Assembly (NCBI RefSeq): GCF_008040165.1
Contig: NZ_VRUR01000002.1
Location: 1,178,001 to 1,242,000 of the forward strand
Length of the DNA: 64,000 nt
Direction: 5' to 3'
Source: Flagellimonas hymeniacidonis
Lineage (GTDB): Bacteria; Bacteroidota; Bacteroidia; Flavobacteriales; Flavobacteriaceae
Every line of letters begins with the position of its first letter. Within the stretch, counting starts at the first letter, position 1. Both the position numbers and the translations under genes were made by a program. This document shows, one piece after another, positions 30,352 to 44,970 of the stretch. Below the pieces are notes generated by a model. The model saw nothing but the letters and a program-made list of their open reading frames with translations. It had not been told where the DNA came from and made no database searches.

Positions 30352-30417
30352 ATCGATAATTTATATTAAAATTTAGCGTAAACCACAACAAAACGGCCCT
30401 TCACAACAATAATTTCA

Positions 30418-43320: not shown

Positions 43321-43334
43321 TAGGGTGCAGAAAT

Positions 43335-43366
43335 AAAAAAGGGGATGCGAACAGCATCCCCTTTTT
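43335..43366. terminator. Strong bidirectional terminator
   Basis: AAAAAA is followed by GGGGATGC-GAACA-GCATCCCC and TTTTT. The eight-pair GC-rich stem has a T-run on both strands, so it can end rpoD from the left and a minus-strand transcript from the right. The minus-strand unit that would end here contains the two micropeptide frames. Confidence 0.9.
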
Positions 43367-43388
43367 CATGATATACACTTTAAAACTA

Positions 43389-43490
43389 TCATGGACGACT
43401 CAACTGACTTATATTAACATCAGTGAGCATATCATTTAAATCCTGTATAAAATTCAAATATGCTGTATTTTCTTGGTTTTGATTTTTCAT
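43389..43490 (-). CDS. Micropeptide A, 33 residues, tandem paralogue
   Basis: This frame of 34 codons on the minus strand runs ATG to TGA and ends 23 bases before the bidirectional terminator. The core AYLNFIQDLNDML matches EYLAFLQELNEIL of the next frame upstream at eight of thirteen positions, with mostly conservative changes at the rest. The N-terminus is NQ-rich (MKNQNQENT) and the tail reads ISQLSRP. It has no Cys, no leader and no membrane helix; the core would form an amphipathic helix. No known family is recognised. The resemblance between two neighbouring frames and the terminator argue that it is expressed. Confidence 0.55.
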   Translation of the reverse strand: MKNQNQENTAYLNFIQDLNDMLTDVNISQLSRP

Positions 43491-43514
43491 GAGATAACGT
43501 TTTGGGGTGGTTTT

Positions 43515-43613
43515 CTATAAATAATCCAATTCTGCAAGTTCATTAATGCTTAAAATCTCGTTGAGTTCTTGAAGAAACGCCAAGTACTCTTCTCCGTAGG
43601 TATCGTACAACAT
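43515..43613 (-). CDS. Micropeptide B, 32 residues, tandem paralogue
   Basis: This frame of 33 codons on the minus strand runs ATG to TAG and lies 24 bases before micropeptide A. The sequence starts MLYDTYGE, has the core EYLAFLQELNEIL and ends ELAELDYL. It is acidic overall. Upstream are about 190 bases without any gene up to the 118-residue gene at 43802; I see no clear promoter there, although several partial TAnnTTT matches exist. Function unknown. It may be a signalling or regulatory peptide, or part of a larger family scattered in the genome. Confidence 0.55.
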   Translation of the reverse strand: MLYDTYGEEYLAFLQELNEILSINELAELDYL

Positions 43614-43801
43614 AATTATTTAGTCTTTGGGTTGTAGTTATAACGTAAACCTATTGGAAAGATTATGGAAGTACAATAAATTGTGGTGAAATTCTAAGAA
43701 TATGTTGTGAAAATGTAGTGAAAACTATAAACTGAAAACTGCATCTTTCATCAAGGATCGTATAAGGATGAGATAGGTGATATGTATAGCTGAAAAAATC
43801 C

Positions 43802-44158
43802 CTATTCTTCTTCAAAAATCTCTAGGGTTACATCAAAGTTCATGTTGAGCCCCTCCGTTTTTGCTGGTTTTATGCTGAACTCATCATACAAAAAACAAAG
43901 ATTCATGGGAAGTCGTTTACTTTCTTTTGAGGCAGGCCTCCCAAGTTTGTCCAATAAAGCGGTTTTAACCTCGGTTGCCAGTTTACTAATGGGAGTTTCT
44001 TCGTTCCTTTCAAGCTCTTCAAGAAATGGAATCTCCTTGGCATCTCCGACCTCTAAAATTTGCTCCAAGAGTATTATTTTGCATCCAAGATCTTTTGCAT
44101 GTTTAAATAATGGATGAAAGATACTTCTATAGTATTCGGGGAGGTTATCATCCTTCAT
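43802..44158 (-). CDS. Unrecognised 118-residue protein
   Basis: This soluble, charged protein of 118 residues starts MKDDNLPEYYRSIFHPLF and ends DVTLEIFEEE. I do not recognise the family. It has no signal peptide and no membrane helix; DPGY-type catalytic motifs are absent. It follows the degenerate-Hpt gene by 17 bp on the same strand and is probably cotranscribed. Base composition is like its neighbours. The stop lies 188 bases before micropeptide B. Confidence 0.55.
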   Translation of the reverse strand: MKDDNLPEYYRSIFHPLFKHAKDLGCKIILLEQILEVGDAKEIPFLEELERNEETPISKLATEVKTALLDKLGRPASKESKRLPMNLCFLYDEFSIKPAKTEGLNMNFDVTLEIFEEE

Positions 44159-44175: not shown

Positions 44176-44970
44176 CTACATATTGCGCAGTACATCAATT
44201 TCAAAGTCCACCAATTCTTCCACTTTTGGGTATTCTACAAGAAACTGATTATATAGAAAGTTTAAGTATTTAATGTCGTTATCCGTTTTGCAAACGGTAA
44301 TCATTTGGTTTGTTATTTCCAATAAGCTCACCGTTTTCATCATCCTAAGGCATGGCTGTATCTTTTGGCAAGCAAAGTCTATTCCTCTAAAATTCTTGGC
44401 TTGCAACTGGACCTTTAAACTTCCAATAAACTCCAAGATATTCTGCTTATAAAGCCTTACCAACTCCTCCAAAAGCTCCATCTGTCCCATACATTCCGTT
44501 AGCACAGGTTTTAGGTTCACCTTATGGGTAGAAAGAAAAGATTCCAAGTTTTTTTCTATTAAAAGTGTATTTGAACTCATAGGTTGATTTTCTTTTTCAG
44601 TTTCAGTTAAGCGCTTTTTATTGCTCATGTATTCATGCCTTGCAGTAGTTTTAAGCTCCTTTACAATATTTTTTTGTTTTTCGGTCAATTCGGTCTTCTC
44701 CAATAATTCAATTAGGGAAGTAAACAATTGCGAGTCATTATGTTCCTCTTTTATTTCTTTCGGTGGGCTTTGTATCCCGACATCTTCATAAATCACTTCA
44801 AGTTGTTCCATTTGTGGAACACCAAAAACTTGATCTTCCAGTCCCGTTTTAAAATCATCAAAAGACCTCTTCAATTTTCCCGCTTCAACAGTGCCCAATT
44901 CCTCATACGAAAAACTGCTTAGTCCTATTTCCAATTTTTCCAAATACGTTAGTAGTTCTCTAGTGCCCAA
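44176..44970 (-). CDS. Protein with degenerate Hpt-like C-terminal domain
   Basis: The protein has 264 residues. The N-terminal half is charged and helical. Residues 150-262 resemble a histidine phosphotransfer (Hpt) helical bundle: LTECMGQMELLEELVRLYKQ and CQKIQPCLRMM fit the family pattern in which A-H-x-I-K-P-S-x-x-M is usual, but the phospho-accepting His position is Gln202. It would thus not carry phosphate and may be a docking or regulatory protein. The frame opens with TTG at 44970; the next ATG is only at Met54, so the N-terminus is uncertain. It is paired with the 118-residue gene. Confidence 0.6.
   Translation of the reverse strand: MGTRELLTYLEKLEIGLSSFSYEELGTVEAGKLKRSFDDFKTGLEDQVFGVPQMEQLEVIYEDVGIQSPPKEIKEEHNDSQLFTSLIELLEKTELTEKQKNIVKELKTTARHEYMSNKKRLTETEKENQPMSSNTLLIEKNLESFLSTHKVNLKPVLTECMGQMELLEELVRLYKQNILEFIGSLKVQLQAKNFRGIDFACQKIQPCLRMMKTVSLLEITNQMITVCKTDNDIKYLNFLYNQFLVEYPKVEELVDFEIDVLRNM

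Follow-up and report, generated by a model that had tools for sequence, protein, structure and literature searches.

The A-B locus

Within the window, the whole 64,000-nucleotide stretch of Flagellimonas hymeniacidonis DNA that was analysed, two micropeptide genes lie in tandem on the minus strand, ORF-A (32 residues) upstream of ORF-B (33 residues), with 24 nt between them (43491-43514), as the first-pass annotation had described (Table 1). The same annotation placed them in a region without other genes, which is partly right: the end of rpoD lies 68 bp downstream of the pair and a 118-aa gene 188 bp upstream. The hairpin with T-runs on both strands that had been seen past the frames does fold on both strands and is the predicted terminator common to the A-B unit and rpoD; a simple consensus terminator scan reported no terminator at this position. 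As read from the sequence, the A-B pair is its own transcription unit, a predicted bicistronic operon with its own promoter. No regulated same-strand gene lies directly downstream, as a leader peptide or attenuator would have it, and this reading was dropped because only the hairpin and the convergent rpoD follow B.

Upstream, the 118-aa gene (43802-44158, minus strand) resembles part of a 306-aa protein at locus L113 (31%). Beyond it, a 264-aa gene (44176-44970, minus strand) corresponds to the two ends, N- and C-terminal, of a hybrid kinase at L113 and lacks its core and receiver, yet versions of this truncated-kinase gene recur in the genus loci read.

Table 1. Features of the A-B locus (window coordinates).
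Feature	Position	Strand	Evidence
ORF-A, 32-aa micropeptide MLYDTYGEEYLAFLQELNEILSINELAELDYL	43515..43613	-	intact in 59/59 genus genomes holding the DNA (60 searched)
ORF-B, 33-aa paralogous micropeptide MKNQNQENTAYLNFIQDLNDMLTDVNISQLSRP	43389..43490	-	intact in the same 59 genomes; homologous to A
CCCAAA leader motif before ORF-A	43626..43631	-	72/121 distinct A leaders vs 15/568 long ORFs
CCCAAA leader motif before ORF-B	43501..43506	-	67/116 distinct B leaders vs 15/568 long ORFs
-7-like element TAGGTTTACG	43644..43653	-	conserved columns 37-46 of upstream profile
-33 TTG, 20 nt before the -7-like element	43674..43676	-	conserved in upstream profile; coordinates from sequence
Operator TTCACAACA-N12-TTCACCACA, a pair of direct 9-nt repeats at a distance of 21 bp, predicted to be the site of a LytTR response regulator	43682..43711	-	upstream profile
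Third repeat TTTTCACTACA, this strain	43714..43724	-	sequence; not conserved in upstream profile
Hairpin with A/T runs, predicted terminator common to the A-B unit and rpoD	43335-43366	both	folding of 43325-43375: minus -23.8 kcal/mol, z -6.8; plus -21.4 kcal/mol, z -5.8

Coding selection and homology of A and B

Of the 60 congeneric genomes (Flagellimonas/Allomuricauda) searched, 59 gave DNA corresponding to A-B, among them all 54 of good quality; the sole genome without it, G037, is 79% complete. Both frames are intact and begin with ATG in every genome that holds the DNA, in 22 A types and 47 B types. Among 14 hand-picked of the 22 genus types of A, 25/32 columns are invariant. Codon statistics, which left out B rows of other than exactly 33 codons and A rows that were not MLYD-initial or not of 32 codons, gave for A a mean pN of 0.080 and pS of 0.860 (pN/pS 0.09; 126 distinct DNA sequences) and for B a mean pN of 0.208 and pS of 0.813 (pN/pS 0.26; 86 distinct 33-codon sequences). 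Variation at codon positions 1, 2 and 3 is 0.13, 0.03 and 0.37 in A, and 0.17, 0.12 and 0.40 in B. Both checks proposed on first reading, a conserved frame in relatives and a comparison of synonymous with nonsynonymous changes, came out in favour of coding, with the frames intact and the substitutions overwhelmingly synonymous.

The likeness between the two peptides had also been judged to exceed chance, and profile-profile alignment bears this out (hhalign probability 96%, E 4.6e-9). Furthermore, the A profile gives a weak match to the neighbouring B in many genomes, and the two have in common the core YLxFLxxLNEILxxxxIxxL. Judging from the codon and profile data, it is nearly certain that A and B are conserved, related, protein-coding micropeptides. 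In favour of the idea that the transcript instead works as RNA, its frames being incidental, the unit is short, has a strong terminal hairpin and as a whole folds better than its shuffles (z -4.1). That idea is extremely improbable in the face of the third-position variation, compared with that at the second, and of both pN/pS values, and an RNA-only function was rejected on these codon statistics of A and B.

Distribution, history and neighbourhood

A wider A profile finds 75/397 Flavobacteriaceae genomes, in 44/237 genera, at E < 1e-15. The edge of this set is sharp: the search was cut at E 0.01, and the only further matches listed, those of G131 and G987 (E values 0.008 and 0.009, in no stated order), were both judged spurious, which takes the count from 77 to 75. 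An order-level sample of 296 genomes gave 10 strong A matches, all in the same family, and in a class-level sample of 295 genomes our own genome is the only strong match; nothing convincing for A was found outside Flavobacteriaceae in these two samples. Locus L214 (a 27-aa frame, E 4.9e-4 per genome, 295 genomes) and other weak out-of-clade matches were judged chance. Among the best 80 of 241, named relatives include Flagellimonas, Croceitalea, Croceivirga, Maribacter and Kriegella, and divergent copies reach down to 41% identity in g22.

B is present beside A in the loci read, except at L171-L175, the five A-only genomes of g78, g22 and g58; in one further genome (L071/L148/L187), A lies inside a longer frame next to B. 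Given the A-only genomes, the simplest history is a tandem duplication once A existed, in which B would have arisen from A as a module of CCCAAA leader plus ORF. In the A-only copy at L171 (g78), the stop codon region looks by eye like part of a terminator hairpin.

The first-pass annotation had considered that the peptides might act on the products of neighbouring genes, and this finds no support: the genes upstream of A-B vary by genus, from the shrunken kinase and 118-aa gene of Flagellimonas to GDPD-like, TPR and other genes elsewhere, and at the divergent loci L171-L175 the 3 kb or so around A contain no rpoD. A link to the upstream degenerate kinase genes was rejected because this neighbour varies among loci. 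The earlier picture of real, related and conserved coding micropeptides that belong to no family in the libraries searched stands, without its tie to the surrounding genes. A-B usually lies opposite the gene of the primary sigma factor, and the peptides might bind that factor or RNA polymerase; this alternative draws on the convergent arrangement of A-B and rpoD in the main-clade loci read, and a strongly conserved A would suit so slowly evolving a partner. A convergent neighbourhood is weak evidence, however, and it is the neighbourhood that the divergent loci lack; such binding is quite improbable.

Promoter, operator and leader

The profile of A upstream regions places a TTG just downstream of an anchor repeat and TAnnTTTAcG 20 nt further. 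The -7-like element of A-B, TAGGTTTACG, we take to represent the Bacteroidota-type TAnnTTTG consensus, and the strict promoter pattern TTG-N17..22-TAnnTTT occurs in 69/122 upstreams. Directly upstream of the predicted -33 box lies the operator, with the consensus TTYACMACA-N12-TTYACMACA. Its anchor repeat, TTCACCACA, is found with at most one mismatch in 125/132 distinct A upstreams, and the second repeat, TTCACAAC, starts 21 bp upstream of the anchor in 124 alignable upstreams. The seven upstreams without a good anchor repeat are L119, L151 and L171-L175.

A Pho box was the first reading of the repeats, from their phasing in this strain and the GDPD neighbours in some genera. It was dropped because no phosphate-like genes were seen by eye beside the own-genome sites printed, and because an exact match pointed to a LytTR pair.

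In addition to the leaders of A and B, the CCCAAA motif precedes 15/17 ORFs of a third micropeptide type, C, described below (own locus counted more than once), compared with 15/568 long ORFs. It is also kept in three of the five A-only loci that have no operator (L171, L172 and L175, not L173 and L174), which suggests that the leader has a separate post-transcriptional role.

The regulator-kinase pair and its predicted regulon

Two exact matches to the starting pattern occur in our own genome, one upstream of A-B and one in the gap between the genes of a response regulator and a kinase. The regulator (251 aa) carries both a receiver domain (Pfam Response_reg, 3e-20) and a LytTR domain (1.3e-17), and the 665-aa protein beside it is a TPR/HisKA_2 sensor kinase. 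LytTR sites have been described as two 9-11 nt repeats with spacers of 11-13 nt and no common consensus (PMC4847170, in the text available). The A-B operator, with 9-nt repeats and a 12-nt spacer adjoining the -33 box, agrees with this geometry and with the expected position near a promoter. No published consensus is known to tie LytTR proteins to TTYACMACA.

Scanned at two mismatches, our own genome is near background (29 matches vs 25 control). One two-mismatch operator-like site in the window (30379-30408, plus strand) is intergenic, with no long same-strand ORF close downstream. The refined pattern TWYACMACA-N12-TWYACMACA gave 73 matches vs 2 reversed-control across 20 genus genomes. An operator lies within 450 nt after the regulator gene in 22 of 24 regulator loci (21 exact, one with one mismatch; L353 and L368 have none nearby), and a kinase match accompanies the regulator in 20/24.

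Part of the sites listed from the 20 genus genomes were read for their neighbourhoods, and three classes recur: the regulator-kinase gap, micropeptide C and a non-coding RNA after hflX. In 17 genomes an operator follows a CoA-transferase gene; 16 of these encode C, a micropeptide of 34-35 aa, and in the 17th the contig breaks off there. Read from the C side, 13/20 loci have an operator at no more than one mismatch. C is a stand-alone micropeptide that mostly ends in KKLFML, and an operator, a CCCAAA-like leader and a terminator often accompany it; the own copy lies at about G000:C1:1009858-1009965 (L268), with relatives at L374-L393. The candidate small RNA is a conserved stretch of about 120-130 nt in nine genomes read, with a terminator and no conserved frame, and has no Rfam match in the loci tested. 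Its DNA is found in 56/60 genus genomes, weakly or partially in some, and the own copy (G000:C1:968427-968492, L270; further loci L394-L423) has a two-mismatch operator at 968318. Other operator-adjoining genes encode a subtilase that is secreted and bears a Por sorting tail, an LRR protein and, as judged by eye, a collagen-like surface protein. A 124-aa family with no Pfam match above cut-off also lies just downstream of an operator in five genera (L322, L325, L339, L345 and L346; own version L248). Overall, a common operator likely joins A-B, the LytTR-kinase pair, C and the small RNA.

Co-occurrence across 45 genomes

The panel comprised 45 hand-chosen genomes: 20 with A and B (B frames of G077 and G134 read separately), five with A only (two of g78, one of g58 and two of g22) and 20 A-negative. 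All 20 A+B genomes contain 3-9 operators (127 in total vs 2 controls) and one regulator ortholog of 86-96% identity. C is present in 19 of them and in 0/25 of the others, with weak matches in G115 (E 4.6e-4) and G194 (E 1.5e-6). The A-only genomes of g78 and g58 have a regulator at 75-79%, with 5, 10 and 8 operators and no C; their A lacks a recognisable operator, although regulator and operators exist elsewhere in the genome. The two g22 genomes have no regulator, no operator and no C. Among the A-negative genomes, 4/20 hold 1-2 operators (5 in total vs 3 controls), and one of these four, G089, has a regulator at 72% with an operator site beside its gene. The 21 panel genomes without the regulator gave 3 operator matches vs 3 controls.

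Operator, regulator and peptides thus largely co-occur in this panel, whose independence is limited because it is hand-chosen and follows one clade; shared descent could inflate the co-occurrence. A is not solely an output of the LytTR system, since it occurs in g22 without regulator or operator and in g78 and g58 without an operator of its own.

The operator could belong to some other transcription factor, for which the LytTR gene region would merely be one target. Direct repeats in helical phase would also be compatible with factors of the OmpR/PhoB type. The lack of a common consensus among LytTR sites leaves room for this as well (PMC4847170, in the text available), but the operator stands beside the regulator gene in nearly all regulator loci, and the two appear and vanish together across the panel, G089 included, which makes another factor unlikely.

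Properties and proposed role of the peptides

Structure models predict helices at residues 2-6 and 8-23 in A (pLDDT 89) and a single helix at 2-30 in B (pLDDT 82). A is acidic, with a net charge of -8, and B mildly so (-2); both are without signal peptide, cysteine or membrane span. No described family had been recognised on first reading, and the searches agree: A, B and C have no Pfam or NCBIfam match above cut-off (very short families may escape these), no PHROGs or PADLOC match was found at E 0.1, and there was no significant PDB match (single sequences of A and B; profiles of A and C). The negative PADLOC and PHROGs results give no sign of a phage or defence system, nor is there one of a toxin-antitoxin system as far as Pfam and NCBIfam models cover these. 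Phage origin was rejected, with none of 26 pattern stretches in IMG/VR confirmed and no PHROGs match. Among the titles and abstracts that the literature searches listed, most subscription papers and supplements lying outside their reach, none dealt with the peptides or with their regulon.

The evidence points to membership of A-B in a LytTR two-component regulon. The LytTR regulator, encoded elsewhere beside the TPR kinase, would bind the two direct repeats upstream of the -33 box and thereby activate A-B, its own kinase gene, the unrelated micropeptide C, the non-coding small RNA and a handful of proteins that are secreted or lie at the surface, and we infer periplasmic sensing by the kinase. 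That A is so strongly conserved implies that its partner is conserved too. The helical A and B are most likely cytosolic, where they would pair together, bind a conserved protein and serve as small effectors or feedback modulators of an envelope or surface response. To this reading as a whole, an operon switched on by the LytTR regulator together with the kinase gene, C, small RNA and surface proteins, and peptides that are cytosolic effectors, we assign a probability of roughly 0.55.

Alternatively, A, B and C might be exported without a leader and act outside the cell, as signals or through surface activity, which would make them the Bacteroidota equivalent of the LytTR-controlled phenol-soluble modulins (PSMs), with the small RNA in RNAIII's place. 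The predicted regulon does contain helical micropeptides arranged in tandem, along with a small RNA and a secreted protease, and in Staphylococcus aureus AgrA directly activates psm-alpha and psm-beta, and the repeats that it binds lie ahead of the agr promoters P2 and P3 (PMC4227749, in the text available). Export is nevertheless improbable: the strong conservation of A in the main clade fits interaction with a fixed partner more readily than surface activity after secretion, the peptide carries a charge of -8, no exporter gene stood out among the loci read, and A persists in g22 without the regulator. None of A, B and C matches the known peptide family models by which a PSM would be recognised. 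A bolder and rather doubtful version is that marine Flavobacteriaceae carry an agr-like circuit built from unrelated parts, in which the TPR kinase and LytTR regulator would drive their own kinase gene, the small RNA and two mutually unrelated leaderless families, A/B and C, as cell-to-cell signals or envelope-active effectors, the common CCCAAA leader being read by one post-transcriptional factor.

Two short frames that began as possible ORFs now count as conserved proteins for which a promoter, an operator and a regulator are predicted, and they are joined by a third micropeptide family and a small RNA that seem to be under the same control. If the proposed cytosolic role and regulon are correct, a Bacteroidota two-component system spends much of its output on tiny products, and, its operator being defined, the regulon could be tested in whichever members of the clade can be cultured.

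Comparison with known systems

The best reading by analogy is that the peptides are intracellular effectors of a LytTR regulon whose organisation resembles that of S. aureus agr, with no relation to it in sequence. PSM genes of S. aureus are in tandem arrangement. In both systems a LytTR regulator, AgrA in S. aureus, acts through two direct repeats just upstream of a promoter (predicted here), and in agr the direct targets of AgrA include psm genes and RNAIII is an RNA of the system (PMC4227749, in the text available). In contrast to agr, the present system showed no sign of an AgrD/AgrB-like module at the A-B, C and regulator loci read, its kinase is of the TPR/HisKA_2 type, none of its peptides fits a family model, A is strongly conserved, and the phylum is another one. 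YpdA/YpdB of Escherichia coli likewise comprises a kinase and a LytTR regulator that uses paired repeats with an 11-13 nt spacer, but has a single published target gene, and the text available (PMC4847170) speaks of neither a micropeptide nor a small RNA. Lastly, A and B are of the same class as the unannotated short frames collected in the GMSC small-protein catalogue and may be included there (PMC11364881).
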